The position numbers and the translations under genes are program-made. The notes under the pieces are model-generated. The model saw only the letters and a list, made by a program, of their open reading frames with translations. It made no database searches and was not told the origin of the DNA. Positions 38,364-53,573 of a DNA stretch of 64,000 nucleotides are shown piece by piece (within the stretch, counting starts at the first letter, position 1; every line of letters starts with the position of its first letter). Source of the stretch: Chloroflexota bacterium (lineage in GTDB: Bacteria; Chloroflexota; Limnocylindria; Limnocylindrales; CSP1-4); assembly GCA_021787395.1 (NCBI GenBank), contig JAJYLZ010000009.1, forward strand, positions 1 through 64,000, written 5' to 3'.

Positions 38364-38834
38364 CTACCGGGGCCGGTTCCACCGCCTCGTGCTCGGCCAG
38401 CTCGAGATCCAGGGGGCGACCCACTCGGCGTCCTCGTACGCGAAGGGCGGGTACGGGTCGAGGAAGGACCGCGCGTCGCCGTCGACAGGGCCAGGGTCCT
38501 TGCTGGCCGGCTCGACGACCCGCTCGAGGGTCGGTCTGATGAAGACGTCGTCCTTCGTGATCCGCTCGATCGCCTCGACCGGCACGAACGACCTGGCTTC
38601 GCCGAGGTGGAGCCATCCCCCGGACGCGATCTCGAGGAACCGAACTCTCCCCACGGCATCGTCGACGAGGAGGTGCTCGATGCGGCCGACCTTCTGGCCG
38701 GTCGGGTCCCTGACGACCCGCCCGCGAAGGTCCTCCTGGTCGCGGGAGACGGTCCTTCCCGCGTTTCGCAGGCGGCTCAGGGTCGGAGGCGGCAGCCGCC
38801 GATCGGTCGTGGTGATGTGGTTGTCGGGATTCAT
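38364..38834 (-). CDS. PRC-barrel domain protein
   Basis: A 156-residue protein. RGRVVRDPTGQKVGRIEHLLVDD followed by VRFLEIASGG and VPVEAIERITKDDVFI matches a PRC-barrel. Such domains occur in RNA processing and in photosynthetic reaction-centre H subunits and stress proteins. The acidic, proline-rich C-terminus (DPYPPFAYEDAEWV) is not diagnostic. Stand-alone gene under a four-unit class I array 60 bp upstream. Confidence 0.82.
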   Translation of the reverse strand: MNPDNHITTTDRRLPPPTLSRLRNAGRTVSRDQEDLRGRVVRDPTGQKVGRIEHLLVDDAVGRVRFLEIASGGWLHLGEARSFVPVEAIERITKDDVFIRPTLERVVEPASKDPGPVDGDARSFLDPYPPFAYEDAEWVAPWISSWPSTRRWNRPR

Positions 38835-38894
38835 GGCGCGGCCTCCGCCTCGTGTTGTCCGATTCGTCCTCGACACGATCCTGCCCCTTCGGGG

Positions 38895-38931
38895 TGAGCC
38901 CCCCGTGATCCTGGGCTGAGCGGCAGGTGAG
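38895..38931 (-). promoter_or_regulatory. Class I direct-repeat array (4 units)
   Basis: TGAG, TGAT, TGAG and TGAG begin at 38895, 38906, 38917 and 38928. Faces the PRC-barrel gene. Confidence 0.75.
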
Positions 38932-39099
38932 GAGATCCGCCATGCCGGCCCGCGTTGCATGGGGACGTTGGTCCGGAGGCCGTCAGCAGGTGCGAGCCCG
39001 AAGCCGTGCCCGCCGGCTGCATCGGCTGACGAATGTGCAGACGGCCCGTGTCGCACACCCCCTCATGAGGACCCGAGCGATGGGCGTCATGGGGTTCGG

Positions 39100-39165
39100 C
39101 TGGTCCCGGTCTGCGGGATAGAGATTCGCCGCGAGGATGCGGCCGCGACCACCGGCCGCGAGTAG
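39100..39165 (+). pseudogene. Truncated YHS-domain remnant
   Basis: The frame reads LVPVCGIEIRREDAAATTGRE then stops. It matches the first half of a YHS domain (DPVCGMEV..EDAAAT) with the second Cys pair missing. The intact YHS gene at 39423 shares the CTGGxCCxGTCTGCGGGAT DNA block, so this is probably a decayed tandem copy. Confidence 0.6.
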
Positions 39166-39341
39166 GCTGACCCGCTGCTTCTCCTGACCGCTACTTCTGC
39201 AGCCAGGCCTGCCACGACACGGTGATCAGGGATCCCAATCCCCACGGCATCCCGCCGCGGGCCACGCCGACACGGCAGGCCCGGCCACTGGTCGGCACCG
39301 GGGGCGCGGAGGCTCAGCCGGACCGCCTGGCCGTGCACGTC

Positions 39342-39367
39342 TCAGCGCCGCTTCACCTCGGGCTAAG
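39342..39367 (+). promoter_or_regulatory. Class I direct-repeat array (3 units)
   Basis: TCAG, TCAC and TAAG begin at 39342, 39353 and 39364. It ends 55 bp before the YHS gene start. Confidence 0.65.
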
Positions 39368-39422
39368 CCTCCGGAGCAACGATCCCGGCGACCCAAGGCG
39401 GAGCCATGGAGGTGCACTCTAC

Positions 39423-39659
39423 ATGGGGGACCTGCTGCTGGACCCAGTCTGCGGGATGGAGATCGAGTCCGGCGGGGCGGTCGCGAGTGCCGTGGCCGAG
39501 GGGCGGCGCTTCCACTTCTGCTGCCCACGCTGCTACGCCGCCTTCCTCGACACGCCGCATCGCTACGTCGGCTGGCCGGGTGAGCCGGTGCGGCCGGTCC
39601 CCGTGGCGGTCGCCCCGCCCACGAGCTCGCGCCTCGGGCGCTGTCCGTTCGCTTCCTGA
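39423..39659 (+). CDS. YHS-domain protein
   Basis: A 78-residue protein: LLDPVCGMEIESGGAV, then RRFHFCCPRCYAAFLDTPHRYVG. The Cys pattern is intact, with CCPRC in the second motif, and a further Cys lies near the end. A likely cytoplasmic metal carrier. Single gene driven by its own class I array, unlike the YHS genes inside the copA and copB units. Confidence 0.8.
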   Translation: MGDLLLDPVCGMEIESGGAVASAVAEGRRFHFCCPRCYAAFLDTPHRYVGWPGEPVRPVPVAVAPPTSSRLGRCPFAS

Positions 39660-39770
39660 GGATGCCCGGCGCCGTGCGGTCCGGCCTCAAGGACCGCGGC
39701 GGGTCACGCCAGGCGTGAGCGCCCCGAAAAGCCCGTACCGCCGATCGGCGACTTGCCTGCGGGCGCCGTG

Positions 39771-40073
39771 TCAGTGGCAGCCGCCGCTGTGCTTCGGCGG
39801 AGCGTCGACCTCGCTCACGGGCGCCTGGCCAGGGTCGGCCGACGCATTCTCGCCCGCGTGCCCCGCATGCCCTCCGTGGCCGCCATGCGCTCCGTGGCCG
39901 AAGAGGTGCATGCCGATCATGCCCCCGAACAGCCCGATCGTCAGCAGGGACTCCGGCGTCAGGACGCCGAGGTAGAGGAGCGCCGCAGCGACGGCGGCCG
40001 CCGCGATCGCCGGGAGCAGCCACCGCGGCCGGCTCCCGGACCGATGGGCCGTGTCGTCGGCGTTGGTGATCAT
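39771..40073 (-). CDS. Small membrane protein with His/Gly-rich tail
   Basis: A 100-residue protein with two hydrophobic segments (WLLPAIAAAAVAAALLYLGVL and LLTIGLFGGMIGMHLF) followed by a GHGAHGGHGGHAGHAG stretch and a terminal GGCH. The layout resembles the small DUF2933-type membrane proteins near copper genes. The His/Cys tail could bind metal. It overlaps the stop of the Lgt-like gene by ATGA, so is the last gene of that operon. Confidence 0.7.
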   Translation of the reverse strand: MITNADDTAHRSGSRPRWLLPAIAAAAVAAALLYLGVLTPESLLTIGLFGGMIGMHLFGHGAHGGHGGHAGHAGENASADPGQAPVSEVDAPPKHSGGCH

Positions 40074-40885
40074 GCGGTTGCCTCCAAGCGCGCTGAGGGG
40101 GAGTTGACGAGACGGGCGCGACGCCTCGCCAAGACGGCGAGGCCGATCCCGGCGATGCCGATCGCGATCCCGATCAGCTGCGCCGTCTTGAGGCCGAGCA
40201 GGACGCTCGGCTCGTCGCGCAGGAAGAACAGCACGAAGCGGATGGACGCCAGCCCGACGAGGTAGGCGGCGGCCAAGGCGCCCGGCACCATGAACGGTTG
40301 GCGGCGGAGGGTCCAGAGCACGACGAACAGGCCGAGCAGCGCGATTGCCTCGTAGGCCTGGGTCGGGTGGAGGGGCGTGCCCAGCGGCGCCATCGCCGCC
40401 GGGTTTCGGTAGATCACGGCCCACGGGACCGTCGTCGGGATGCCGGCGGAGTCGCCGCCGATGAGGCACCCGACGTGGCCGATCGCCTGGCCGACGGCTG
40501 CGGCCGGCGCCGCCACGTCAAGGGCGCTCATCCAGCCGACGCCTCGCCGACGCGCGAAGACGACCAGAGCCGACGCCCCGGCGACCAGGCCCCCGTAGAA
40601 CGACAGCCCGCCGGTCCACACCATGAGGAGGTGGACGGGGTGCGCGGCGAGGTCGGGAAGGCCGTTCTGCAGGGCGTAGAGCAGCCGCCCGCCGGCGAGG
40701 GACGCCACGGCAACCCAGAGCACGGCGTCGGCGACGACCCCCCCCGGCAGCCTCCGGCGGCGGGCCTCGTGGTCGGCGACCGCAGAGGCGACGAGCATCG
40801 CGAGGACCAGCGTCAGGCCGTACCAGCGGATGTCCACACCAGCGACCCGGAACGCGACCGGGTCGATGTCGATGACGAAGGGCAC
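40070..40885 (-). CDS. Prolipoprotein diacylglyceryl transferase homologue with altered signature
   Basis: A 271-residue membrane protein with the Lgt layout: VDIRWYGLTLVLAML, a GGLSFYGGLVAG segment, LHPTQAYEAIALL and FVLFFLRDEPS. Lgt transfers diacylglyceryl to lipoprotein cysteines. Its signature GRIGNFINGE here reads GHVGCLIGGD, so the normally conserved Arg, Asn and Glu are changed. It may therefore have another substrate or be a variant form. Neighbouring cupredoxins and lipoproteins fit a membrane-attachment role. Confidence 0.75.
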   Translation of the reverse strand: MPFVIDIDPVAFRVAGVDIRWYGLTLVLAMLVASAVADHEARRRRLPGGVVADAVLWVAVASLAGGRLLYALQNGLPDLAAHPVHLLMVWTGGLSFYGGLVAGASALVVFARRRGVGWMSALDVAAPAAAVGQAIGHVGCLIGGDSAGIPTTVPWAVIYRNPAAMAPLGTPLHPTQAYEAIALLGLFVVLWTLRRQPFMVPGALAAAYLVGLASIRFVLFFLRDEPSVLLGLKTAQLIGIAIGIAGIGLAVLARRRARLVNSPSARLEATA

Positions 40886-40894
40886 CGGTTGGCC

Positions 40895-41407
40895 TCAGCG
40901 GCGTTCGGCGGCGCGGCGCGGCGCCGCAGCAGTCCGGAGGACGGTCAGCGCCGTCACCAGGCTCGCGAGGGCCGCGGCGAGCCAGGTCGCGAGGACCGGT
41001 GCGCCGGCGAGGACCGACGCGCCCAGCAGGAGGACGAGTGCCGAGAGGAGGATCGCCCAGGGCCAGGGACCGCGGCCGCCACCGCCCCTGTGGTGGCCGG
41101 AACCCGCGCGGCGGACGATGCGCCCGCGGTAGCGGCCCATGCCGCACGTGAACCGGACCTCCCCCGGCCCCGCCGCGGGGAGGTCGACCACGGTGGTCGC
41201 GCCCGGCGCCAGGTGCCTGACGAGGCGCGGCTCCGAGAACACGACGCGGTCCGAGCACTCGTGGGCGTCCACCCTGTGGAACACGAGCCTGATCGGGGTG
41301 TCGGCCGCCACCTCGACCAGGCTGGGGTGGTACCCATTGGCGACCAGGATCTCGACCGTCTGCGCGTCCTCAACCGACACCTTGCCGCGACCGCCGATCA
41401 CCGCCAT
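40895..41407 (-). CDS. Cupredoxin-like protein with C-terminal membrane anchor
   Basis: A 170-residue protein. The first about 100 residues form a cupredoxin-like beta domain (VEILVANGYHPSLVEVAADTP, LVFHRVDAHECSD, VRFTCGMGRYRG). The Cys-x-Met-x loop resembles the end domain of the fusion at 25120. Then a basic linker and two helices (PWAILLSALVLLLGASVLA). No signal peptide is seen, so the beta domain would lie on the same side as the N-terminus unless insertion is unusual. Overlaps the previous small gene by 10 bp; Lgt-like follows after 9 bp. Confidence 0.72.
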   Translation of the reverse strand: MAVIGGRGKVSVEDAQTVEILVANGYHPSLVEVAADTPIRLVFHRVDAHECSDRVVFSEPRLVRHLAPGATTVVDLPAAGPGEVRFTCGMGRYRGRIVRRAGSGHHRGGGGRGPWPWAILLSALVLLLGASVLAGAPVLATWLAAALASLVTALTVLRTAAAPRRAAERR

Positions 41408-41601
41408 GCGACGGCTCCGAACCCCGCGAGGAGGATCACCGCGAGCAGCACGACCACCAACCAGGTCGCCGGGTGCGTCATGACGCCCGCGGCTGCCCCC
41501 GCGCACGACCTGGTCGCCGCGCCGCCCCCCACGACCAGGTCGAGGAGGACGAGCGCGCCGACGGCGATGAGCAGGTAGCCGAGGATGTCCACGGCCGTCA
41601 C
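41398..41601 (-). CDS. Small two-helix membrane protein
   Basis: A 67-residue protein with helices ILGYLLIAVGALVLLDLVV and TWLVVVLLAVILLAGFGAVA separated by a short loop containing one Cys. Start GTG chosen because a class I array ends 15 bp upstream and the hydrophobic part begins directly. First gene of the cupredoxin-Lgt operon. No family recognised. Confidence 0.6.
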   Translation of the reverse strand: MTAVDILGYLLIAVGALVLLDLVVGGGAATRSCAGAAAGVMTHPATWLVVVLLAVILLAGFGAVAWR

Positions 41602-41616
41602 GTTCGTCTGGCCAGA

Positions 41617-41653
41617 TGAACGCGGGATGAGGCGCTGGTAATGCACGGCTGAG
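41617..41653 (-). promoter_or_regulatory. Class I direct-repeat array (4 units)
   Basis: TGAA, TGAG, TAAT and TGAG start at 41617, 41628, 41639 and 41650. Faces the small membrane protein-cupredoxin-Lgt operon and lies 15 bp from its first start codon. Confidence 0.68.
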
Positions 41654-41760
41654 AATGCCGGCGTCCCAGCCCAGTTCAAGGCTTGCCTCGGGCCTCGCGG
41701 CTGAGAACCCTGCTGGGTGCCGCTGAGTCCGGCGAGAGCGGATCCGGGGGCCCGTTCGGC

Positions 41761-43002
41761 TCAGGCGCGATCCAGGGCGCTGGCGATGTCCCGGAGCAGG
41801 TCGTTGGGCGACTCGACCCCCACCGACAGCCGCACCAGCGCCGGGTCGATCGCCAGCGACGAGGCGGCCACCGACATGTGGGTCATCGCGGCCGGGAGCT
41901 CGACCAGGGACTCGACCCCCCCGAGCGACTCGGCGAGCGTGAACAGGCGGGTCCCCTCGCAGAAAGCAGTCGCCCGTTCGGGCGCAGACTTGCCCGCACG
42001 ACCGCCGGAGGCGGGGATGAACGAGATCATCCCCCCGAAGGCCGGCTCGCCGGTCTCCGCGTGGCGCATCTGGCGCGCCGCGATGGCGGCGCCCGGGTGC
42101 GCGTGCCGCCCGTCGCGCAGGCCCGGGTAGCTGACCCACGCCACGTCCGCGCGTCGCGCCAACAGCTCCGCCACCAGGTTGGCGTTCGCGGAATGCCGGG
42201 CCATCCGGAGCGGCAAGGTGCGGAGGCCGCGCAGGACGAGGAAGCAGTCAAGCGGCCCAGGCACGGCGCCCATGGCGTTCTGGATGAACCGGAGGCGATC
42301 AGCGAGGCCGTCGTCGCTCACCACGACGACCCCCAGGACGGTGTCGGAGTGGCCCCCGAGGTACTTCGTGGCCGAGTGGAGGACGATGTCCGCGCCGAGC
42401 TCCAGGGGGCGCTGGAGCGCCGGCGATGCGAACGTGTTGTCGACGACAAGAAGCGGTCGGTCTTCTCGCGAGCCCGAGTCGCGGACGAGCGAGGAAACCG
42501 CGGAGATGTCGACCACCTTGAGCAGCGGGTTGGACGGCGTCTCGACCCACACGAGCCGCGTCCGGCCGTGCCTCGCTCCCAGGACGGCCTCAACGGCGCC
42601 GCCCGCCAGGTCGACATATCGCGTCGTCGCGGCACCGCCGGCCTTGTGCACGCGCTCGAGGTACCGGAACGTGCCGCCGTAGACGTCATCGCCCACGAGG
42701 ATCTCGCTGCCGGGGCCCGCGAGCTGGGCGATGGCCGCGGTGGCCGCGGAGCCGGACGCGAACGCGATCCCGTGGCGCCCGCCCTCGAGGTCCGCGACGG
42801 CGCGCTCGAGGCGTTCGCGCGTGGGGTTCTGGGACCTCGCGTACTCGTATCCCCGCCGCGGGCGGCCGACGCCGTCCTGGGCGTAGGTCGAGGTCTGGTA
42901 GATCGGCGGGGAGACGGCCCCCGTGACCTCATCCGGCTCTGCTCCGGCGCGCACGGCGCGCGTTGCGAAGGCATGCCCGTTTCCGCGGCGTTGCGTCTCC
43001 AT
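41761..43002 (-). CDS. Cystathionine gamma-synthase / gamma-lyase-type PLP enzyme
   Basis: A 413-residue Cys/Met-metabolism PLP enzyme. Motifs: VSPPIYQTSTYAQ, YEYARSQNPTRERLE, FASGSAATAAI, VWVETPSNPLLKVVDI, VVDNTFASPALQRP, and the PLP lysine in VLHSATKYLGGHSD. It makes or cleaves cystathionine. With the CBS-type enzyme at 20986 it could complete transsulfuration. The frame stays open upstream, but the ATG at 43002 has AGGGAA just before it and starts the conserved region. The opposite strand over the kinase genes is not coding. Confidence 0.9.
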   Translation of the reverse strand: METQRRGNGHAFATRAVRAGAEPDEVTGAVSPPIYQTSTYAQDGVGRPRRGYEYARSQNPTRERLERAVADLEGGRHGIAFASGSAATAAIAQLAGPGSEILVGDDVYGGTFRYLERVHKAGGAATTRYVDLAGGAVEAVLGARHGRTRLVWVETPSNPLLKVVDISAVSSLVRDSGSREDRPLLVVDNTFASPALQRPLELGADIVLHSATKYLGGHSDTVLGVVVVSDDGLADRLRFIQNAMGAVPGPLDCFLVLRGLRTLPLRMARHSANANLVAELLARRADVAWVSYPGLRDGRHAHPGAAIAARQMRHAETGEPAFGGMISFIPASGGRAGKSAPERATAFCEGTRLFTLAESLGGVESLVELPAAMTHMSVAASSLAIDPALVRLSVGVESPNDLLRDIASALDRA

Positions 43003-43177
43003 GCGTTCCCTGCCCATCTGGTCTGGTGATCGGTCGTGAGACGACGGACGCCCTCGAGGCCACTCAGCGGGAGGGGCCGATCTCGACGCTCCGGATGATG
43101 CCCTCGCTAATGAGCAAGATTCGGGCCTGGCCGAGACTCGGTCAAGCGAGCGGGGGCTGCGTCCGCCGAGCGTGCAA

Positions 43178-44266
43178 TCAGGGCGCAGGGAGCTCCACAA
43201 GGAACGTGGCCCCCATGCCGAGGCCGGCGCTCTCGGCCCACGCTCGGCCCCCCATCGCGTTGGCCAGGGCGCGGACGATCGCAAGGCCGATGCCAGCGCC
43301 ACCGGCGGATCGCGTGCGGGCCGGATCGACCCGGTAGAAGCGCTCGAAGACGGCCTCGAGCTGGTCCGCGGCGAGCCCTTGGCCCTGGTCGGTGACCCGG
43401 AGCCTGCCGGCCCCGGAGGCCACCTCCGCCGCGACCTCGATCGACGAGTTGTCCGGCGCGTACCGGAGCGCGTTCGAGAGGTAGTTCGAGACGATCTGGG
43501 CGACGCGGTCGCGGTCGGCCATGACTGGCAGGCGGCCGGCGGGAGCGGCCAGCCCGATCCCTCGCGCGTCGGCCTGCGGCGCGAACCGGGCAATGACCTC
43601 CCGAGCCACCTCGGCCGCGTCGATCTCCTCGGTGCGCAGCGGCAGCTGGTGCGCCTCGGCCCGCCACAGCTCGGCGAGCTCGTTGACCATCCTCGTCAGC
43701 CGCGAGGTCTCGGCGCGGAGCAGGTGCCACGTCTGGGGGCTCGACTGGATCACGCCGTCCTCGAGTCCCTCGAGGTAGCCGTCCAGCGTCGCCAGCGGCG
43801 TGCGCAGCTCGTGCGCCACGTCGCCGACCAGCTGGAGCCGCCTCCGCTCGGTGGCCTCGAGGGACGCCGCCATGTCGTTGAACGACGCCGCGAGGTCGGC
43901 GATCTCCCCGGGCTCGTCGGTCTCCACCCGCTCGGCGTAGTGGCCGGCGGCGATCCGCCGCGACGCGTCGGCGAGGCGGGTGACGGGCCGAGCGATCCGT
44001 GCGGCGACGGCAACGCTGACGACGGCTGCCGTGATCACCGCGATGACCGTGGCCGCGAGGAGCGCCCGGCGCATCGCGTCGATGAACGCCATCTGGGTGG
44101 CCATTGCCATGGCCTCGCCCATCGGGTCGCCCGGGACGTGGCCCATCGCCTCCGAGAAGTAGCTGGGGCCCACGAGCAGGACCGCCGCGCCGACGGTGCC
44201 CAGCGCCGCGGCCGCGACGGCCACGAACGCCGCCAGCAGCCGAGCACGCAGCGACCGGGGGATCAC
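43178..44266 (-). CDS. Sensor histidine kinase with Met-rich outer loop
   Basis: A 362-residue kinase. Helix 1 (LLAAFVAVAAAALGTVGAAVLLV), a short outer segment containing SEAMGHVPGDPMGEAMAMATQ (about six Met within 35 residues), helix 2, HAMP (ARIARPVTRLADASRRI), H-box VAHELRTPLA, and HATPase domain (NYLSNALRYA, DQGQGL, GIGLAIVRALANAMGG). The Met-rich loop could bind Cu(I) or Ag(I). GTG start overlaps the stop of the response regulator, forming a two-gene operon. Confidence 0.92.
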   Translation of the reverse strand: MIPRSLRARLLAAFVAVAAAALGTVGAAVLLVGPSYFSEAMGHVPGDPMGEAMAMATQMAFIDAMRRALLAATVIAVITAAVVSVAVAARIARPVTRLADASRRIAAGHYAERVETDEPGEIADLAASFNDMAASLEATERRRLQLVGDVAHELRTPLATLDGYLEGLEDGVIQSSPQTWHLLRAETSRLTRMVNELAELWRAEAHQLPLRTEEIDAAEVAREVIARFAPQADARGIGLAAPAGRLPVMADRDRVAQIVSNYLSNALRYAPDNSSIEVAAEVASGAGRLRVTDQGQGLAADQLEAVFERFYRVDPARTRSAGGAGIGLAIVRALANAMGGRAWAESAGLGMGATFLVELPAP

Positions 44267-45027
44267 GGCCGCGCCTCGCGCAGCCGGTAGCCCACGCCCC
44301 GGACCGTGTCGATGAAGCGCGGATCCGCGGCATTGTCACCCAGCTTGCGTCGGATGTTGCCGATGTGGACGTCGACCAGGTGGTCGTCGGCGAAGTTGAC
44401 GCCGCCCCACACCTCCCGGAACAAGCGCGCCCTCGACAGGACGATGCCCGGCTGGCGAGTGAGCGCGGCGAGGACGGCGAACTCGATGGCGGTGAGCTCT
44501 ACATCCCTTCCGTCAACCCTGACGGACCGGCGGTCCTCGTCGACGGCAAGGCCGGGCGGCCCGGTCGAACGGAGGTGGGCAGTCGATGAGCGCGGTCGCC
44601 GGAGGAGCGCCTTGATCCGCGCGACGAGCTCGCGCGGCGAGAAGGGCTTCGCCAGGTAGTCGTCCGCGCCCACCGTCAAGCCGGCGACGCGGTCGACCTC
44701 CTCGCTGCGGGCGGTCAGCATCAGGACGTAGGCGTCCGAGAACCCGCGGAGTTGCCGGCAGACCTCGATCCCGTCGAGGCCGGGGAGCATGAGGTCGAGG
44801 ACCACCACGTCCGGCTCGAAGTCGCGGACAGCCGAGACGGCAGCGATGCCGTCAGCGACCACGCGTGCCTCCCAGCCCTCTCGCGAGACGTACCCGGCGA
44901 CCAGATCCGCGATCGGGGGCTCGTCGTCGACCACCAGGATGCGCGGGGCGCGTGCAGGCGGATGCGTGCCGGTGTCGTCCGGCTGGTTGTGGTGGATGGT
45001 GGACGCCAGATCTGTGTCCTCGCGCAT
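44263..45027 (-). CDS. OmpR-family response regulator
   Basis: A 254-residue regulator. The receiver (RILVVDDEPPIADL, phospho-Asp in VVVLDLMLPGLDG, LTARSEEV, DDYLAKPFSP) and the winged helix ([57 protein letters not shown]) are complete. Residues 1-28 are an extra acidic/His-containing N-terminus. A class II array (GCAAG/TCAAG) lies 99 bp upstream, so this protein is the best candidate for binding class II sites, and it would also control the copA operon. Confidence 0.92.
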   Translation of the reverse strand: MREDTDLASTIHHNQPDDTGTHPPARAPRILVVDDEPPIADLVAGYVSREGWEARVVADGIAAVSAVRDFEPDVVVLDLMLPGLDGIEVCRQLRGFSDAYVLMLTARSEEVDRVAGLTVGADDYLAKPFSPRELVARIKALLRRPRSSTAHLRSTGPPGLAVDEDRRSVRVDGRDVELTAIEFAVLAALTRQPGIVLSRARLFREVWGGVNFADDHLVDVHIGNIRRKLGDNAADPRFIDTVRGVGYRLREARP

Positions 45028-45355
45028 GTCGTCTCTGCAGCACTTGGCTTCTAGAAGCGCTCGCAACCGTGGCGCCTCGAGGACATTGTCCGCGGTCGCT
45101 GCGCTGAACACCACACAGGGGGTGGGCAAGCGCGCGTCAAGGAACCATCAAGACGCCGATCCCGCGCCGCAGCGCCCGGCGAATGCGATCGTGGGCGGCG
45201 ACCGCAGACAACGTGCGTGGATCGGGACGACGTCAACTCGGGCCGGGCAAGCGGAGCCGAAGCGCGCCCGGAGCGTGGCCGGGCAGCTGCTTGATCGTCA
45301 CGCTCCAGGGCGAGGGCGGTGCGGACAGGCGGTTGGTGGCACCGCCGTGCTTCGT
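45028..45355. other. Gap between response regulator and Cys-rich peptide genes
   Basis: No gene recognised. It contains the class II array at 45126-45152. Confidence 0.5.
45126..45152 (-). promoter_or_regulatory. Class II direct-repeat array (GCAAG/TCAAG, 11-bp phase)
   Basis: GCAAG, TCAAG and TCAAG start at 45126, 45137 and 45148. Blocks GCAAGCG, GTCAAG and ATCAA are shared with 29057-29083. Upstream of the response regulator-kinase operon, as expected for autoregulation. Confidence 0.65.
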
Positions 45356-45436
45356 CTACGTCCTGTGCGCCGAGCAGTCGCACGGGCAGCCGCAGTGCCT
45401 GCAGCCGCAGCACTGGCCGCAGGGGCAGTCACACAT
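45356..45436 (-). CDS. 26-residue metallothionein-like Cys-rich peptide
   Basis: ATG to TAG encodes a 26-residue peptide with ten cysteines, starting MCDCPCGQCCGC and continuing RHCGCPCDCSAHRT. Six CxC pairs and one CC give the density of a metallothionein, which would bind several Cu(I) or Zn ions in the cytoplasm. A strong AAGGAGG ribosome site lies 6 bp upstream, inside the end of the MerR gene, whose stop it overlaps by 8 bp. The regulator and peptide form a two-gene unit. It is unlike the longer mycobacterial MymT. Confidence 0.75.
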   Translation of the reverse strand: MCDCPCGQCCGCRHCGCPCDCSAHRT

Positions 45437-45829
45437 CGCCGACCTCCTTCCTGCCGACTTGAATGAGCGGCCGCGGTTGAGCGCCCGCTGCCAGGGCGGC
45501 GTCGAGCCGGGCGAGCTCGGCGTCGAGCCCGGCCAGCTCGCGGGTGCGCCGGGCGATCTCGTTCCGCCGGGTGGCGATCGCCGCCCGGACGCCCTCGGCG
45601 ACGCGGTCACACTGGCCGTCGGCGCACAGGCCGGCCAGCTCCGCCGCCTCGCCGAGCGGCACGTCGAGCCGCCGGAGGCCCACCAGCACGCGCAGCCGCT
45701 GGACGTCGTCGGCCCCGTAGTCGCGGTACCCGTTCGTCGCCCGGGCCGGCCGAGGCAGCCGCGCTCCTCGTAGAAGCGCACCGCCTTGGCCGTCACGCCC
45801 AGCTCGCGGGCGAGGTCGCCGATCTGCAT
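45429..45829 (-). pseudogene. MerR-family metal regulator, frameshifted
   Basis: The protein starts MQIGDLARELGVTAKAVRFYEERG (MerR helix-turn-helix) and, after a frame change near 45755, continues ATNGYRDYGADDVQRLRVLV, LDVPLGEAAELAGLCADGQC, and a long coiled helix ending VGRKEVGDV. One missing C in CTCGGCCGG accounts for the break (restoring LRPARATNGY). The CADGQC loop before the dimer helix end resembles the Cys metal site of CueR/ZntR-type members. Intact coupling to the Cys-rich peptide suggests the break may be a read error. Confidence 0.8.
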
Positions 45830-45945
45830 GGCCAGACGGTAGACCTTCCAGAGGCGGGAATGTCAAGGAGCCAACCAGGGAACGCAGGCCCGACCCATCC
45901 ACGCCTTCCCCAGCCACCGCGATCGGCGCCGCCGGGAAGCGTTCT

Positions 45946-45982
45946 TGAGGAGTTCTTGAGGCACCTTTGTGAGCAGCCTGAG
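45946..45982 (-). promoter_or_regulatory. Class I direct-repeat array (4 units)
   Basis: TGAG, TGAG, TGTG and TGAG begin at 45946, 45957, 45968 and 45979. Orientation assigns it to the MerR-Cys-rich-peptide unit (start 116 bp away), although the SHOCT-cupredoxin gene lies 80 bp to the right. Confidence 0.65.
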
Positions 45983-46061
45983 GAAGGCCCCGCAGTATGT
46001 CTCTTGCATCGCCCCGCTGGGGGCAACGACACAACGACGGATTTCAGGAAGGGAAAGCAGA

Positions 46062-46325
46062 ATGATGTTCGGGTACGGATCCGGCCTCGGATGGGGCCTC
46101 GGCGGCTGGTTGGGGATGCTGGGCATGCTCGCCGTGATCGTCGGGATCGTGGTCCTTGTCGTCTGGCTCGTGAGCCGCGCGACACAGAGCGCTCAGCCGC
46201 AGGGCCCCGGCGCGCCGGGCCAGCAGCCTGATGCGATGGAGTTGCTCCGCCTGCGGTTCGCGCGCGGCGAGATCACCGCCGATGAGTACCAGGCAGCCAA
46301 GAACGTCCTGGAGGCGGGTAGATGA
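46062..46325 (+). CDS. SHOCT-domain small membrane protein
   Basis: An 87-residue protein: Gly/Met-rich start (MMFGYGSGLGWGLGG), one membrane helix (MLGMLAVIVGIVVLVVWLV) and SHOCT motif (LLRLRFARGEITADEYQAAKNVL). A paralogue at 28702 also precedes a cupredoxin. Ribosome site GGAAGGG upstream; ATGA overlap with the cupredoxin. Confidence 0.85.
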   Translation: MMFGYGSGLGWGLGGWLGMLGMLAVIVGIVVLVVWLVSRATQSAQPQGPGAPGQQPDAMELLRLRFARGEITADEYQAAKNVLEAGR

Positions 46326-46945
46326 GCGGGCGGCTGGGGATCGCCGGGGCGGGGCTGGTCCTCGCCGGCGCGGTGATGATCGGCGTGGGGGCCGTCGTCG
46401 GGGGAGGGTTCGGCGGGTTCGGGCCGGCCGCGATGATGGGCTACGCCCTGGACGGCTCCGCCGGGGCGAACGGAACGAATGGGACGACGACCACGCCCTA
46501 TGGTTACGGGATGATGGGCGGGTACGGCGGCTACGGGATGATGGGCGGGTACGGCGGCTGGGCCGGCAACGGCGTCGCCGGCGCCTCCGCTCCGGCCCCG
46601 GGCGAGGCCGGCTTCGTCGCCGGCACGCAGGCGAGCCCACGCGTGGTCCAGGTCATCGCCGGCCCCGGCTACACCTTCACGCCGTCGGTGATCACCGTCC
46701 AGAAGGGCGAGACCGTCACCTTCGAGGTGACGACCATGGGACCGCTCGTCCACGAGTTCATGGTCGGCCCGGCCGACGCGGTCGCCGCCGACCAGGAGGG
46801 CACGCCCGAGGTCGCCGACATCGGGATGATGCAGACCAAGTCGGTGACGTACACGTTCGACGGCTCGGGCCCGTACGCCTTCGCCTGCCACGCCCCCGGC
46901 CACTACGAGGCCGGCATGAAGGGGACGATCACCGTCGTCGGCTGA
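46322..46945 (+). CDS. Membrane-anchored cupredoxin with GYGMMGG repeats
   Basis: A 207-residue protein. An N-terminal signal/anchor helix (LGIAGAGLVLAGAVMIGVGAVV) is followed by a Gly/Tyr/Met-rich linker with two GYGMMGGYGG units, then a cupredoxin domain: GYTFTPSVITVQKGETVTF, His in LVHEFMVG, and the loop FACHAPGHYEAGM with Cys, His and Met ligands of a type-1 site. The GMMGG units resemble those in the cupredoxin at 9669 and the kinase at 47064, pointing to a shared Cu(I)-binding theme. Coupled to SHOCT and followed by the kinase. Confidence 0.88.
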   Translation: MSGRLGIAGAGLVLAGAVMIGVGAVVGGGFGGFGPAAMMGYALDGSAGANGTNGTTTTPYGYGMMGGYGGYGMMGGYGGWAGNGVAGASAPAPGEAGFVAGTQASPRVVQVIAGPGYTFTPSVITVQKGETVTFEVTTMGPLVHEFMVGPADAVAADQEGTPEVADIGMMQTKSVTYTFDGSGPYAFACHAPGHYEAGMKGTITVVG

Positions 46946-47003
46946 CCCGACGACCGGCGCGCGGGCTCGACCCTGGGGCGGCCGCGTAGACCGGCACGAC
47001 CGC

Positions 47004-47035
47004 GCCCCCGCCCCACGCGCGGAAGGGGCGGGGGC
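47004..47035 (+). terminator. GC-rich hairpin between cupredoxin and kinase genes
   Basis: An 11-bp perfect stem (GCCCCCGCCCC / GGGGCGGGGGC) with a 10-nt loop, 28 bp before the kinase start. It may attenuate transcription or act as a processing site; no U tract follows. Confidence 0.5.
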
Positions 47036-47063
47036 CGGACCCGCCCTACAGGAAGGGTGTCAA

Positions 47064-48302
47064 ATGGTCCGTCGTGAGCTGAGCCGCCTCCGGTGGCGGC
47101 TGCTGGCGGCCAATCTCGCCGTGGCGGCCGCCGGCGTGGTTGCGGCCACGTTCGGCGTGTGGCTGGCGGCGCCCGGCGCCTTCAGCGACGCCATGGTCCG
47201 CGCCGGCATGATGGGTGCGGGCCAGGGCGGCATGATGGGCGGCTCCGGGCCAAGCGGGGTGATGGACCCGCTGCTCAGCGCCGCCTTCGGCGACGCCGTC
47301 GGGACCGCGATCTGGCTCGGCCTCGCGGCGGCGGTCGTCGTTGCCGTCGCGGCGTCAGTGCTCCTCGCGACGCGCCTGTCGCGGCCGATCGACGCGCTCG
47401 CGGCCGCCAGCCGCCGCGTGGCCTCCGGCGACTACTCGCGCCCCGTGGCGCAGGGGGCCGGCGAGCTGGGCGAACTCGCCGCGTCGTTCAACGCCATGGC
47501 GTCCCGCCTCGCCGCCGAGGAGCAGCGCCGCCGCGACATCATCGGCGACGTCGCGCACGAGCTGCGGACGCCCATCGCCTCGGTCCGCGGATACGCCGAG
47601 GGGCTGGAGGCGGGTGTGTTCGCGCCCGGGCCCGACGCCTGGAGAGTGCTGTGCGAGCAGACCGAGCGCCTCGGGCGGCTGGTGGACGACCTGGCCACGC
47701 TGTGGCGGGCCGAATCCAGCGACGTGCGGCTGGAGATCGGTCCCGTGGACGCGGGGACCGCCGTCGCAGACGCCCGGGAGCGCCACCTCGCGGCCGCCGC
47801 TGCCCGCTCCACCACCCTCTCGCTCGACGTCGAGCCAGTGTGGGTCGCGGCAGACGCGGTGCGGCTGGCCCAAGTTCTCGACAACCTCGTCTCCAACGCC
47901 ATCCGCTACGGCCACGACGGCGGCGCCGTGACGCTGTGCCTGCGGGCGGAGGGTCGCGCCGGCGTGATCTCGGTGCGCGACGACGGGCCCGGGCTCGAGC
48001 CCGCGGAGGCGGCGCGCGTCTTCGACCGCTTCTACCGCGTCGACACGTCGCGCTCGCGGGCGGGGGGCGGCAGCGGCCTCGGCCTGGCAATCACCAAGTC
48101 GCTCACCGAGGCGATGGGCGGCGCGGTGGCGGCGTCGAGCCCTGGGGCAGGAATGGGGGCCACCTTCACAGTCCGGCTCCCGCTCGCCCGAGCGGCAGAC
48201 ACCCGTCACCCGCCCAAGGGGCTCAGCCAGAGTGACGGGTCGGGTGGGAATGGGCGACCGCAGCGTGGCAGCGATCGCCCGACGGCGTCCCCCCACTTGT
48301 GA
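47064..48302 (+). CDS. Orphan sensor histidine kinase with Met-rich outer loop
   Basis: A 412-residue kinase. Helix 1 (LLAANLAVAAAGVVAATFGVWL), an outer loop with GMMGAGQGGMMGGSG and VMDP, helix 2, HAMP (RLSRPIDALAAASRRVASGDY), H-box VAHELRTPIAS, N-box NLVSNAIRYG, DDGPGLEPA and GLGLAITKSLTEAMGG. A hydrophilic C-terminal extension of about 40 residues follows. No response-regulator gene is adjacent; the broken regulator at 16742 or either intact OmpR-type protein could be its partner. The Met-rich loop and cupredoxin neighbour suggest copper or silver sensing. Confidence 0.9.
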   Translation: MVRRELSRLRWRLLAANLAVAAAGVVAATFGVWLAAPGAFSDAMVRAGMMGAGQGGMMGGSGPSGVMDPLLSAAFGDAVGTAIWLGLAAAVVVAVAASVLLATRLSRPIDALAAASRRVASGDYSRPVAQGAGELGELAASFNAMASRLAAEEQRRRDIIGDVAHELRTPIASVRGYAEGLEAGVFAPGPDAWRVLCEQTERLGRLVDDLATLWRAESSDVRLEIGPVDAGTAVADARERHLAAAAARSTTLSLDVEPVWVAADAVRLAQVLDNLVSNAIRYGHDGGAVTLCLRAEGRAGVISVRDDGPGLEPAEAARVFDRFYRVDTSRSRAGGGSGLGLAITKSLTEAMGGAVAASSPGAGMGATFTVRLPLARAADTRHPPKGLSQSDGSGGNGRPQRGSDRPTASPHL

Positions 48303-48431
48303 CGGCAGCCATCGCGGCGACCATCAGGCCTGAGCCCAACGCCCTGGTGTCGCGCTGTGCCGGCGACCCGCCTCTCACTGGTCTGACACGGCCCCCACCG
48401 ACGGCCGCAGGCGGGCGATCGCGGCGGACGG

Positions 48432-49280
48432 TCAGACCGTGAGCAGGATCGCGAACCCCATCACCAACACCACGAGCGCCATCAGCAGCTTGGTCCCGCT
48501 GGCGTGCTTGAGGTGCCACCGGTTGAGCGTCCTGATGACGCCGGGTCGGCTCGCGAGCACGAGGAGCAGGACCAGCGGCGTGATGTACGCCAGGTTGTAG
48601 AGGGCCAGTCCCCCAAGCCCGGCCGCCACGCTGCCGCCTGCGCCCAGCAGGGCCACGACGCCGAGGTACACGGCGCCGCTGCACGGCACCGTGCACAACC
48701 CGATCAGCACCCCGCCGCCGAGCAGGGCGAACGGCGAGCTGGTACGGGCCCATGCGCGCATCCGCCCGTGCAGGGCACCCGGTGCGGCGAGCTGCAGCGG
48801 CGCATCCGGCAGGAGCGCGTCGCGGAGCATCCAGATGCCGAACGCGATGGCGACCAGGGCCGCCACGCGACTCGGCAGATGGTTGGAGCCGAAGTCGGTG
48901 GCCGAGGCGATCGCCGTCAGGAGGCCGAGGCCGAGGAGGAAGTACGTCGCGAGGACCCCTGCCACGAAGAGCGACCCCAGGCCGAGCACGCGCCGCGAGG
49001 CCGCTGCGGCGGCGGGCCCCCCCGTGGCCACCGATTCCCTCGCCGCCAAGCCGAGGGCGAAGGTGGCGAACAGGATGAGCACGCCGAAGGCGCAGGGGTT
49101 GAACCCGTCGAGGAACCCGGCGCCGAGGATGATCGGGACGGTGAGCGGCTCGAGCGCCCCATGGGCTCCTGCCGGGGCATGCGGCTGGGCGAAGGCGACG
49201 GCAGCGGCGGCCACGCCGAGGACCGCCCCCACCGCAGCGATCGCGGTGGTGCGCCTCGGCATCGCGAGAGCGCCCGTCAT
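48432..49280 (-). CDS. CcdA/DsbD-like thiol transporter, second copy
   Basis: A 282-residue membrane protein with the same two motifs as the copy at 27286: DGFNPCAFGVLILFATF and LCTVPCSGAVYLGVV. About seven helices, one an N-terminal signal-like helix. Likely to carry reducing equivalents to the CuA-like cupredoxin encoded immediately upstream, whose stop overlaps this start as ATGA. Order and overlap mirror the 27286-28709 pair. Confidence 0.85.
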   Translation of the reverse strand: MTGALAMPRRTTAIAAVGAVLGVAAAAVAFAQPHAPAGAHGALEPLTVPIILGAGFLDGFNPCAFGVLILFATFALGLAARESVATGGPAAAAASRRVLGLGSLFVAGVLATYFLLGLGLLTAIASATDFGSNHLPSRVAALVAIAFGIWMLRDALLPDAPLQLAAPGALHGRMRAWARTSSPFALLGGGVLIGLCTVPCSGAVYLGVVALLGAGGSVAAGLGGLALYNLAYITPLVLLLVLASRPGVIRTLNRWHLKHASGTKLLMALVVLVMGFAILLTV

Positions 49281-49762
49281 GCGGTCACCGTCAGCGTGCC
49301 CTGCATCGTCGGGTTGGCTCGGCCGCCGCAGCAGATGCCGCAGTACCAGGTGTACGTCCCCGGTGTTGCCGGCGCGGTGAACTCGAAGACCTTGCTGCTC
49401 TCCGGTCCCACCTTCCAGTCGATGCCCAGCTGGTCGATCGCCATCTCGTGCCAGCCGCCGCCGTCGCTGTGGAACTGGGTGTCCAGGGATGTCAGCTCGA
49501 TGCTGACGGTCGAGCCCGCCTTGACGCTGAACGAGTCCGGCGAGAATCCGCCCATGCTTGCCTTGACCTGGATGGCATCCGCGGAGATGGGGCTCGACGG
49601 CAGGAGGCGGGCCGCGACCAGACCGAGCGCGGCGAGGGCGATCGCAGCAGCGAGTATGCCGAAGCCGAGCGACCGCAGCCGCCGCCCCCTCGCAGCCGGG
49701 CGGGGCTTGGGCTGCCCGGGCCGGGAGGCGGCGCCGCGGTTCGATGGCGAGTGCTTGTTCAT
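49277..49762 (-). CDS. Membrane-anchored CuA-like cupredoxin, second copy
   Basis: A 161-residue protein with a basic N-terminus, one helix (LGFGILAAAIALAALGLVAA) and a cupredoxin domain with MGGFSPDSFSVKAGSTVS and the metal loop WYCGICCGGRANPTM. The Cys-x3-Cys pair and following Met resemble CuA loops, like the copy at 28137 (VYCDSCCGG). A His in HSDGGGWHEM may be a further ligand. Coupled to CsoR-like and CcdA-like genes. Confidence 0.82.
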   Translation of the reverse strand: MNKHSPSNRGAASRPGQPKPRPAARGRRLRSLGFGILAAAIALAALGLVAARLLPSSPISADAIQVKASMGGFSPDSFSVKAGSTVSIELTSLDTQFHSDGGGWHEMAIDQLGIDWKVGPESSKVFEFTAPATPGTYTWYCGICCGGRANPTMQGTLTVTA

Positions 49763-50142
49763 GGGCGGGCTTCCTCTGGGTGTTCTGTGGGTTGGTGCGG
49801 GGACGCGATGGGGTCGAGGGGGGCCCGGCCCGGGCTGCGCCCGCGGCGGAGGATCGGCCGGAGCAGCAGCCGCACGTCCGGGCGGGCGTCCTCCGACGCA
49901 ACCGCCTGCCGATCGACCTCCTGCTGGACCAGCCGCAGGAGGAGGGCGTCGAGTGATCCCTGCGTCGCGAGCAGCTGCTGGACGACGGCGCAGTGCGGCT
50001 GGCCGCTCCGAATCATCTCGGCGACGGCGGCGGCCTGACCCGCGGCGCGGTTGGCGCGGGCGAGTGCCTCTGCGCGCTCCGTGACGGATGCCGCCGTCTG
50101 GGGGCGCCGGCCACGTCCCGACGCCGAGCCGAGACGGCTCAC
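49759..50142 (-). CDS. CsoR/FrmR-superfamily protein with altered metal ligands
   Basis: A 127-residue helical protein. ALARANRAAGQAAAVAEMI, then GQPHCAVVQQLLATQGSLDAL and LVQQEVDRQAV match the three-helix DUF156 fold of CsoR, RcnR and FrmR. CsoR uses Cys-His-Cys for Cu(I). Here the first site is His-Cys (PHC), but the second-helix His and Cys positions are Glu and Gln. It also has a long Arg/Pro-rich C-terminus. So it may sense something other than Cu(I), or bind DNA constitutively. Start GTG overlaps the S2P-like stop. Confidence 0.65.
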   Translation of the reverse strand: MSRLGSASGRGRRPQTAASVTERAEALARANRAAGQAAAVAEMIRSGQPHCAVVQQLLATQGSLDALLLRLVQQEVDRQAVASEDARPDVRLLLRPILRRGRSPGRAPLDPIASPHQPTEHPEEARP

Positions 50143-51242
50143 GGGCGCCACCCGTGGGTCGCACGCATGTCCTGGGCGTCGGAGGCGGCCCACGCCCGCA
50201 TCTGGGCGGCCGCATCATCGGCGTCGACCGCCCCGTAGCGGCCGCCGCGCACGAGCAGGACGCCGACCGTCGCCAGATCGCCGGCGATGTCCGCGGCAGG
50301 GGCGTCCTCCCGCGCGACGCGGAGCGAGGCGGCGGGCACCATCACGTCGCCGCATCGCGCGGCGGGGCGGGCCAGCGCCACGCGGAACTGGCGCGGCCCG
50401 ACGACGCCGACGAACGCGCCACTGCCATCGAGCACGAGCGAGACGCAGTCGCGCGTGCCCGGCGCCAGATCCGCGATCCTGTCGTCGGCACGGCATACCG
50501 ACGTGACGGGATGCGCGAGGTCCGAAGCCGAATGGCTTCTGAGGAATCGGCTCGTCGTGTCGAGGTCCTTGCGGGACCCCGCCGCGACCCAGACGGCCAC
50601 GGCCGGAAGGCCGCCGAGAGCGGCGATCACGGGGTTGCGCAGGAGGACTGCGCCTACCGCGAGCAGCGCAGCGAGCAGGGCAGCGGCCGTCCTGGCCATC
50701 CGCGCCGCGTGGGCCACCCGGTGGTCGGGGTCTGCGCAACGGAGGTCTGCGACCGCCTGGGCGGCCCCCCAGCCAGGGAGTCCTGGAATCGGGACGACGA
50801 GGGCCAGGAGTAGCCCGAGGTTCGCGACCCCGGCGAGCATGCCGATGGCGTGCTGGTCGGTTCCGGGGATTGCACCCGCGGTCGCGACCCCTGCCGCAAT
50901 CGCGAGCGCGCTTGACAGAAGTGCGCCGGCGGAGAACGCGGCGAGGCGTCTTGCCGGCGAGGCATGCAGCACGGTGGAGCTCGAGCGTCGGCGTGGCGCG
51001 GCGGCTCTCCGCCCATCGAGCATGACGAGACGCGCCGCGCGCGGGAGGAGGACGGCCATGCCGACCAGGTAGGTGCCAGCAGCGGTCGTCAGGGCCACCT
51101 GCACCGGCCAAGCGTTGGGGTGCATCGGCATGTAGAGGGTGGCGACGAGGACAACCGCGATGGCAGCCGGGACGAGCAGCCGGCCGGGCCCTTCCGCGGC
51201 CAGGCCTCGAGCTGGCAGGCCAGGGGCGAGTCGCGCCCTCAC
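50139..51242 (-). CDS. Site-2-protease-like membrane protein lacking HExxH, second copy
   Basis: A 367-residue protein paralogous to the one at 29796. Helices in residues about 15-210; NLGLLLALVVPIPGLPGW corresponds to the NPDG region of site-2 proteases, with Asp-Gly lost, and no HExxH is present. The C-terminus is CBS-like (DCVSLVLDGSGAFVGVVGPRQF). The GTG start is chosen because it overlaps the upstream stop as GTGA, matching the pattern of this operon; an ATG at 51287 is the alternative. Downstream come the CsoR-like, cupredoxin and CcdA genes. Confidence 0.62.
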   Translation of the reverse strand: MRARLAPGLPARGLAAEGPGRLLVPAAIAVVLVATLYMPMHPNAWPVQVALTTAAGTYLVGMAVLLPRAARLVMLDGRRAAAPRRRSSSTVLHASPARRLAAFSAGALLSSALAIAAGVATAGAIPGTDQHAIGMLAGVANLGLLLALVVPIPGLPGWGAAQAVADLRCADPDHRVAHAARMARTAAALLAALLAVGAVLLRNPVIAALGGLPAVAVWVAAGSRKDLDTTSRFLRSHSASDLAHPVTSVCRADDRIADLAPGTRDCVSLVLDGSGAFVGVVGPRQFRVALARPAARCGDVMVPAASLRVAREDAPAADIAGDLATVGVLLVRGGRYGAVDADDAAAQMRAWAASDAQDMRATHGWRP

Positions 51243-51496
51243 CAGCGGGGCCCCGGCGCTGCGCGATCGAGGTGCTCGCCCTTCCATGCCACGTATGCCG
51301 CCGCCATGAGGATGCTCCCGCCGACAAGCGCGATCGGGATGTCCTCCCGTGCGGGGGCAGTCTGGCCCGGCGCTGCCTCGTCGCCAGTGGGCGACGCACC
51401 CCCCGCCCCAGTCACCTCGAGTGGCGTCAAGGCCTCACCGGCTAGAGGGAACGCAAGGGCGATGAACGCAGCCAGGATCAAGAGAGCTCGGCGCAT
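51239..51496 (-). CDS. Small secreted/membrane protein, first gene of the second cupredoxin operon
   Basis: An 85-residue protein with an N-terminal signal-like helix (ALLILAAFIALAFPLAG), a polar central part and a second helix (IALVGGSILMAAAYVAW). No cysteine or His cluster; no family recognised. A four-unit class I array begins 71 bp before its start, and its stop overlaps the next start. Confidence 0.6.
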   Translation of the reverse strand: MRRALLILAAFIALAFPLAGEALTPLEVTGAGGASPTGDEAAPGQTAPAREDIPIALVGGSILMAAAYVAWKGEHLDRAAPGPRW

Positions 51497-51567
51497 CGCG
51501 AACCCTCCGTTCTCCTCTCCTACATCGGCGGCCCAAGCGGGGCCACGCAGACTCCACACCTCGCCGC

Positions 51568-51604
51568 TGAGTTGGGGATGAGGGCCGTCTTAGCAGGCGC
51601 TTAG
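51568..51604 (-). promoter_or_regulatory. Class I direct-repeat array (4 units)
   Basis: TGAG, TGAG, TTAG and TTAG start at 51568, 51579, 51590 and 51601. By orientation it controls the second cupredoxin operon; the YHS-like gene at 51792 lies on the other side. Confidence 0.72.
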
Positions 51605-51791
51605 GAATCGCCTCGGACACCGGGCACCGATCTGGGGACGACGTCGGGACCGTGCGGCGGCAGGAAATGCATCGCTCAGGGCGGCCTCATCGTGCGCTCA
51701 GGCTGGCGAGCGACGCTGTCCGCCCGGGACGAGCTCGAGAGGAGTATTCCCGAGCACCGTCCGACCGGTACAGCGAAGTTGGAGTCCCAAT

Positions 51792-52064
51792 ATGCGGCTC
51801 ACCGAACTGGCGGTGATCGACTCGGGCCAGCAACCCGCGGCCCCCTGCGCCACCTGCGGCACGCTCGTGCCGGCCGGATCCGGCGTGACTGCGCTATTCC
51901 ACGGCCGCACGCTGCGCTTCCGGTGCGGCGAGTGCTACTCGCGGTTCGTCCTCGATGCCGACCACGCGCCCGAGGCCATCCTTCCTTCCTGCTGCAGTGG
52001 CGAAGCGTCGCATGAGCCCGAGCCCGATCCGGCGACGACGCCCTACAGCGAGTGGTGCATCTGA
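51792..52064 (+). CDS. YHS-like metal-binding protein, divergent
   Basis: A 90-residue protein with PCATCGTLVPAGSG, GRTLRFRCGECYSRFVLDAD, and a tail containing PSCCSG and a terminal EWCI. It shares the LRFRC-x2-C core with the product at 33653, forming a divergent YHS/TRASH-like pair. Extra cysteines in the tail may add a site. Stand-alone gene, convergent with the kinase gene. Confidence 0.65.
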   Translation: MRLTELAVIDSGQQPAAPCATCGTLVPAGSGVTALFHGRTLRFRCGECYSRFVLDADHAPEAILPSCCSGEASHEPEPDPATTPYSEWCI

Positions 52065-52160
52065 CGCCGGGGCCTCCTGGGGCGACGCCTCGCCCGCGGG
52101 CCCAGCGCGAGGTGCGGCGCGGTCGGTGCGACCGATCGCCGACGATCGCCCGCGGCTCCC

Positions 52161-53573
52161 TCAGCGCGGGCGTGCCGGGATCGAGATCTCGACGCGGGTG
52201 CCCGCCCCGGGCAAGGGGGCGAGCGACATCGTGGCGCCGTGGGCGTCGGCGATCCAGCGCGCGATCGCGAGGCCGAGGCCCGTCCCCGATGGCCGGAACC
52301 CCCGGGCGCGGCGCCCTCGGTAGAGGCGCTCGAACACGCGCTCCACGTCCTCCGCGTCGATCCCGATGCCGGTGTCGTCGACGGTCACCACCGCGCTGGC
52401 GCCGAGGGACTTCAGACGCACGGTCACCGTGCCGCCCGGAGGCGTGTAGCGCGCTGCGTTGTCGAGCACGATGCCGAACAGCTCCCGGAGGCGGTATGCG
52501 TCTCCCTCGACGGTCACGGGCTCGACGGCGGCGACGGTCATGCGCACGTGCGGCGCGGCCTGCCGCCCCCGGCGGACGGACTCGACCAGGAGCGCGTCGA
52601 GCTCGACCGGCTCGAACTCCAGGCGCGCCCCGGACTCGGCGCGGGCCAGCGACAGCAGGTCGCCGACGAGGCGGCCCATCCGCTCGGCCTCGTCGCGGGC
52701 GTCGGTGAGGATGGCCTCGCGCTCGGCCGGGGGCAGGTCGGGGCGTGCGGCGAGGTCCAGGTTCGCCCGGACCGTCGTCAGGGGCGTCCGGAGCTGGTGC
52801 GACGCGTCGGCGAGGAACCGCTGGAGCGTCTGGTGGTTCTGCTCCAGCGCCTCGAGCATCTCGTTGAACGCCACGGCGAGGTCGCCGATCTCGTCGCCCG
52901 GCCGGCCGACGTCGACGCGCGCCGCGAAGTCGCCGGAGAGCGCGATGGCCCGGGCGGTCTCGGTCACCTCGACAACCGGCGCCAGGGCGCGGCGGGCCAG
53001 GAGGAAGCCGCCGACCACGGCCGCGCCGGACACGAGGGCGCCGCCCGCGACGAGCGCGGCCGCCACCGTGCGGAGGAGGTCGTCGAGGGGCAGCGTCGAG
53101 TTGGCCCACGCGACGTAGCCGACGACGCCCCACGTCTGGTTGGTGATCGTGTGGACCGTGTAGCGGCGGGAGTCGCCCGTCGCGGTCACGAACGGCCGTA
53201 CTAAGTACGCGTGGGCGTCCGCGGCCGCGAAGTCGGCGGCGTCGATGGGCGGCGGGGCGGCGCCGGCGGGCGCCGAGTCGGCGATGACCGCGTGGCTGGG
53301 GTCGTAGACGACCACACGGCCGCCGGTCGACGCCAGCTGGTCCACCAGGCGTCCGCTCGGACGGAGCCGGCCCGCGGCGTCCACGTCCTGGGCGAACGCG
53401 CCCGCAGCATGCTCGGCGTTCGCGAGGAGGGCCGAGTCGAACGCCCCGACGAGCTGGCCGCGGAGCAGGACGAAGGTACCACCGCCGAACGCCAGCAGCG
53501 CCACGGCCAGCAGCCCGTTGTAGATGAGCGCCAGGCGGACCCGGAACGAGGGCCGCGGCCGACGCGTTCTCAC
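52161..53573 (-). CDS. Sensor histidine kinase
   Basis: A 470-residue kinase. Helix 1 ([24 protein letters not shown]), an outer domain of about 130 residues, helix 2 ([23 protein letters not shown]), HAMP ([17 protein letters not shown]), H-box [12 protein letters not shown]-box [19 protein letters not shown] and [15 protein letters not shown]. The outer domain is not Met-rich, unlike the other two kinases; the signal is unknown. The GTG start overlaps the regulator stop, giving a complete two-component operon. Confidence 0.93.

Follow-up and report, generated by a model that had tools for sequence, protein, structure and literature searches.

The minus strand of a Chloroflexota contig carries, between positions 45356 and 45829 of the 64,000-nucleotide stretch analysed here (the window), a very short Cys-rich reading frame at the end of a merR-like gene. 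This raises the question of whether the short frame is a gene at all and, if so, whether its product could handle metal under the control of the regulator encoded upstream.

The Cys-rich micro-ORF and the merR gene of the window

The peptide ORF, recognised from its reading frame, homologues and codon pattern, occupies positions 45356 to 45436 (minus strand), from an ATG at 45436 to its end at 45356. Its 26 codons specify MCDCPCGQCCGCRHCGCPCDCSAHRT, hereafter a type A peptide, in which 10 of the 26 residues are Cys arranged in CxC and CC motifs, a composition that agrees with the small, Cys-rich character of metallothioneins. An AAGGAGG-type Shine-Dalgarno sequence, GGAAGGAGG, lies 6 bases upstream of this ATG at 45443 to 45451 (minus strand), within the 3' end of merR from where it would drive translation of the peptide, and the ATG overlaps the TGA of the MerR frame as ATGTGTGA. 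Both the 26-codon ORF with its Cys spacing and the strong ribosome site in the end of merR, as given in a preliminary description of the locus, were borne out.

That description had also treated 45356 to 45829 as one gene, which it is not: the interval joins two frames and consists of an N-terminal MerR frame, an out-of-frame stretch and the peptide. The N-terminal frame (45752 to 45829, minus strand; assigned by translation and alignment) starts with the ATG at 45829, begins with a helix-turn-helix, MQIGDLARELGVTAKAVRFYEERG, and is lost after about 24-26 codons. The remaining MerR (LPRPARATNGYRDYG...LCADGQC...GDV) was found by translation in another frame, at 45429 to 45761 (minus strand), ending in GDV-TGA with the TGA at 45429. 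The Cys-x4-Cys attributed to this MerR is present as LCADGQC, but sits in a reading frame other than that of the claimed ORF. Because four bases common to all 11 aligned relatives are missing from the window, at an exact place that is ambiguous within 45750 to 45760 (minus strand), we regard its merR as frameshifted. It is either a pseudogene or an assembly error, and this copy may be decaying; intact merR copies are present in relatives.

When read through the frameshift, the protein is a clear MerR that matched Pfam PF13411 (MerR_1) at 64 bits (E = 1e-17), with both the helix-turn-helix and the dimerisation helix, which are intact in the relatives. CueR was its best match in both NCBIfam and the PDB, short of the curated CueR cut-off (63.9 bits versus 147), and the protein fell far below the cut-offs of the nearest equivalogs, CueR, MerR and CadR.

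A chance scan for Shine-Dalgarno-led ORFs between 12 and 50 codons long, in which Cys numbered 5 or more and made up at least 20% of the residues, covered 553 kb comprising the window and related MerR and peptide loci. It returned 32 matches, repeats from overlapping loci included, a number that is not to be read as a frequency since the loci had been picked for MerR or peptide matches. Exactly one match fell in the window, and almost all stood behind a regulator, the exceptions being one orphan ORF and one linked to arsM. Ten order-3 Markov simulations of the same loci yielded no Cys micro-ORF, a zero background that is informative despite the choice of loci. An Rfam search of the window found no RNA family, and no intrinsic terminator was found within 44900-46200.

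Relatives of the peptide and of its regulator

Scanning of 177 draft genomes of the same class with the pattern CxCxCGxCCGCxxC retrieved type A peptides from 10 places in 9 genomes, representing 7 of 46 genera, and found none in about 345 genomes from other classes of the phylum. The full spacing CxCxCGxCCGCxxCxCxCxC is common to all 10 loci, and the core Cys codons encode Cys in 100 of 100 instances with TGT and TGC alternating; the last residues of the peptides compared are not conserved. Pairwise differences numbered 159, 164 and 402 on codon positions 1, 2 and 3, respectively, and this bias, together with the fixed Cys, indicates that the sequence is translated and under selection.

Six of the type A loci consist of a separate ORF overlapping the merR stop (the window, G009, G069, G176 and twice in G106). 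Two others form the in-frame C-terminal tail of a complete MerR (G021 and G096), where the peptide part is still preceded by a Shine-Dalgarno and an ATG. Of the last two, that of G006 continues the frame of a MerR remnant and that of G056 follows merR-merA. In G006, which belongs to the same genus, the peptide has been retained at L170:7500-8070 (+) and most of merR lost, the remnant being short. The Shine-Dalgarno is conserved within merR as GGAAAGGAGGA, to the point that many peptide-linked MerRs have as their C terminus the GKE(E) that it specifies.

The conserved homologues on which the preliminary description had staked its proposal were found, in that the pair of MerR and Cys peptide recurs in many genera, supported by invariant Cys, synonymous codon drift, a conserved Shine-Dalgarno and in-frame fusions. 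The frameshift of the window merR might suggest a spurious ORF within a decaying gene. This we consider extremely improbable, as no such ORF arose in the simulations and the Cys are invariant, with synonymous drift, in other genera having an intact merR; the chance reading was rejected, and for the peptide family it is already contradicted by these comparisons. On the same grounds, we regard the window peptide as a real gene, above chance.

Two further types of peptide were recognised. Type B peptides (18-21 residues; CxxCCC(D/E)xHCC, for example MTRCEDCCCDKHCCGCGT) occur at 12 places, spread over 11 genomes and 9 genera of the class; a draw of 380 genomes from the phylum, about 330 of which belonged to other classes, yielded none. 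Ten of the 12 lie behind MerR with their start overlapping the merR stop, one lies behind an ArsR regulator (PF01022) and one is without a recognised partner. Type C, MTNCECGPDCPCGPCC, a peptide of 16 residues, is encoded inside the 3' portion of merR and was seen in two genomes. Related peptides behind MerR measure 16-29 residues and occur in many genera of one class. On one small contig, a Shine-Dalgarno-led Cys micro-ORF, MTWNCDCGPECGPECRPDCC (L185:2943-3005, plus strand), follows just after an arsM-like arsenite methyltransferase gene at 2066-2911, and the other strand carries a type B peptide behind MerR.

Neither the window peptide nor any of four relatives matched a profile of Pfam or NCBIfam, including those of the known bacterial metallothionein families (SmtA/BmtA, MymT), although the shortness of such queries limits sensitivity. 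A tblastn search of plasmids with the peptide, a query that low-complexity filtering may mask, returned nothing; in viral contigs the type A pattern gave five matches, all low-complexity Cys runs, and type B none. The fetched flanks of the best MerR homologues reached via other lineages (30 loci, 43 genomes) held no Shine-Dalgarno-led Cys micro-ORF, and in these plasmid, viral-contig and 30-locus searches sampling outside the phylum was thin. One contig-wide genome scan was discarded as uninformative, its pattern being without glycine codons and matching TGC repeats and poly-Cys readings.

Types A and B are intermixed on a MerR tree (38 sequences), hence the peptides have probably been swapped among closely related regulators. 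The regulators themselves differ from the familiar metal sensors CueR, MerR and CadR, which hold their metal ligands in a C-terminal loop. Loop Cys are absent from nearly all MerRs of the peptide-linked group, where the only Cys outside the helix-turn-helix are Cys 70 and Cys 75, so that even the metal response of the regulator is something we infer. The missing loop Cys, the in-frame fusions in G021 and G096 and a sister MerR group with its own Cys-rich tail would all agree with the peptide being a detached metal-binding tail. MerR would then have given up its C-terminal Cys pair, and the micro-peptide, sometimes re-fused, would set the metal occupancy of the regulator as store and feedback. 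By delivering, competing for or removing the regulator's metal, it would act as a co-sensor or feedback switch rather than in bulk cell protection. We consider this a possible, though unlikely, role, for types A and B swap between close MerRs, and one close MerR paralogue (G106, contig 105) is without a peptide; the occurrence of type B after ArsR and of type A after merA speaks further against a strict subunit.

The sister group, marked by a CHSGHC motif (L178, L187, L190-L201, L204 and L205), forms one branch on the MerR tree, and its C-terminal tail reads PCCxAA...GGCxCC. Other MerRs, at L173:273-842 (minus strand) and L206 near 5750-6337 (minus strand), have a long tail with CDCGC...CxCGCxCC and ACxCGCCG, and one of them adjoins an HMA-containing P-type ATPase.

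Promoter, operator and neighbouring genes

A 'class I array' reported before MerR could not be identified; a MerR-type promoter/operator was found instead at 45836-45866 (minus strand). It comprises a -35 TTGACA and a 19-bp spacer with the operator dyad GACATTCC-N7-GGAAGGTC (45842 to 45866), and a -10-like box, TACCGT (45836 to 45841), 6 bases before the merR ATG. The arrangement TTGAC[ACT]-N19-TA[CG]NNT precedes the peptide-linked merR genes for which the upstream region is available, with 6-9 bases separating the end of the -10 box from the start codon. Across 25 sequences, the dyad arms are complementary at 201 of 275 positions, versus 179 +/- 4 after shuffling, in keeping with the operator dyads that MerR-family regulators have in 19-bp spacer promoters. 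A scan of 44900-46200 for sigma-70 promoters with 16-18-bp spacers, which did not cover 19-bp spacers, found none.

Apart from its own other-strand reading, the operator is a single site in the window, where 0.02 further sites are expected, and the whole genome holds one further site, which immediately precedes another MerR gene (contig 86). Given the MerR-type dyad and a -10 box ending 6-9 bases before the merR ATG, the merR mRNA is probably leaderless and its gene self-activated. MerR would mainly activate its own promoter, and the strong internal Shine-Dalgarno would make the peptide a major product. An in-frame fusion of MerR with a low-molecular-weight phosphatase/ArsC-like domain (277 aa) was observed at L202:1038-1871 (minus strand) and L203, and the same fusion type occurs in G000 on contig 86 near 42726-43085; these fusions are preceded by the same type of 19-bp spacer operator.

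Divergent from merR are genes for a small SHOCT-domain protein (46062 to 46325, plus strand; Pfam PF09851) and a cupredoxin-domain protein (46322 to 46945, plus strand; Pfam PF00127); within about 7 kb there are also a YHS protein, a CsoR-like repressor and further cupredoxins. Among the other genomes, G009 (same genus) has, next to merR-peptide, a CopI-like cupredoxin together with a SHOCT-like protein. The locus of G056 has a MerA that scores above its curated cut-off and carries a CC pair at its C terminus, that of G106 has a YHS protein as well as MerA-like FAD enzymes, and DF (seleno)proteins occur in G006, G069 and G106. These neighbourhoods point to soft metals (Cu, Hg), with no single one fixed. 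The wider region, 38364-55747, is a metal/redox island with the YHS protein, several cupredoxins, the CsoR-like repressor, three histidine kinases and a BlaI-type repressor.

Downstream of the window peptide, a response regulator gene starts after about 330 bases on the same strand, an arrangement in which a very short, intergenic, Cys-rich upstream ORF could serve as a leader or attenuator peptide, its translation controlling the following genes. However, the genes after the peptide vary by locus, the next being convergent or unrelated in several, and conservation extends to the Cys spacing, beyond mere Cys codons; the leader reading was rejected as very unlikely. The differing downstream genes also mean that the metal is not fixed. 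A methanobactin-like precursor of a modified copper-binding peptide would fit in length and Cys content, yet PF05114 (MbnB family) had no match in the whole genome, control genomes having matched, and no modifying enzyme was recognised among the annotated neighbours. Nor is the end of the peptide conserved, unlike what a leader/core layout needs, and this RiPP reading was likewise rejected, its probability being minimal.

A candidate micro-metallothionein operon

The reading that we prefer, and consider fairly probable, is a metal-inducible operon for a micro-metallothionein, that is, a peptide expected to bind metal. We favour it because the 10-Cys spacing is invariant in the 10 type A loci amid TGT/TGC drift, because all ten are linked to MerR (upstream, fused, as a remnant or as merR-merA) and because type B has the same architecture, behind MerR in 10 of 12 cases. 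It is further argued for by the Shine-Dalgarno conserved within merR, with no such ORFs in simulations, by the dyad-bearing 19-bp spacer promoter before merR, its operator near-exclusive in the genome, and by neighbours with links to metals (cupredoxins, the CsoR-like repressor, a MerA bearing CC at its C terminus, DF (seleno)proteins and YHS proteins). Exchange of the peptides among MerR lineages and their use behind ArsR are as expected of an effector. Counting against it are the frameshifted merR in this genome and the patchy spread, with type A in 9 of 177 class genomes. The varying downstream genes and the loop Cys missing from these MerRs also weigh against it.

In such an operon, the promoter of merR would be occupied by the MerR-type activator itself, at the dyad within the 19-bp spacer. 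Capture of a soft metal ion, be it Cu(I), Hg(II), Cd(II) or Zn(II), would lead the activator to open this promoter, with the two conserved Cys as the probable ligands. The leaderless transcript would begin at or next to the merR ATG, and the strong Shine-Dalgarno at the merR end would drive translation of the peptide. Its 10 thiolates would enclose the metal in a cluster and keep it buffered until reductase, cupredoxin or efflux systems encoded nearby take over.

The peptide had been called shorter than known bacterial metallothioneins, and its length is unusual against those cited, such as SmtA with about 56 residues, but not against those of fungi. The Neurospora crassa metallothionein, once considered the shortest, has 26 residues (PMC4755600), that of Magnaporthe has 22, and the size range quoted for metallothioneins starts at 22 residues (PMC12508003); types B (18-21 residues) and C (16 residues) lie below this minimum. 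Fungal copper thioneins resemble the window peptide in length, extreme Cys density and being gene-encoded, whereas the latter is bacterial, has another Cys spacing and lies in an operon with its own regulator. A weak resemblance in Cys pattern to wheat Ec-1 metallothionein (PDB 2kak; E = 3) is not significant, and no kinship is claimed.

The nearest precedents for a metal regulator with a small thiol protein are SmtA/SmtB and CadR-Zrd, and the present system would work like these, though not necessarily as a member of any of their families. In the cyanobacterial SmtA/SmtB (Pfam Metallothio_Pro type; PMC7387436), a metallothionein gene has a dedicated adjacent metal regulator, as here; SmtB is, however, a divergent ArsR-type repressor, whereas here a MerR activator shares the operon with the peptide, which has no Pfam match. 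In CadR-Zrd of Pseudomonas aeruginosa (PMC12301328), a MerR-family activator controls a small Cys metal-binding protein, as proposed here, but Zrd is proposed to have two mononuclear Cys4 sites and is not a merR-overlapping cistron, in contrast to the 10-Cys micro-peptide. With CueR, MerR and CadR the window system has in common the helix-turn-helix, the dimerisation helix and the operator dyad in a 19-bp spacer; it differs in a MerR below their cut-offs, in Cys 70/75 in place of loop Cys and in an operator nearly confined to the front of the regulator's own gene.

Bacterial metallothionein-like peptides that are gene-encoded and only 16-29 residues long would stand at or below the cited size limits, and below routine gene calling. 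Their layout would be self-contained, combining an autoinduced, probably leaderless regulator, a strong internal ribosome site and an interchangeable peptide, a layout from which unannotated Cys peptides may be predicted at the ends of annotated metal-resistance operons in other lineages, too. Types A, B and C would provide a natural series on the fewest residues with which a working metal cluster can be made.
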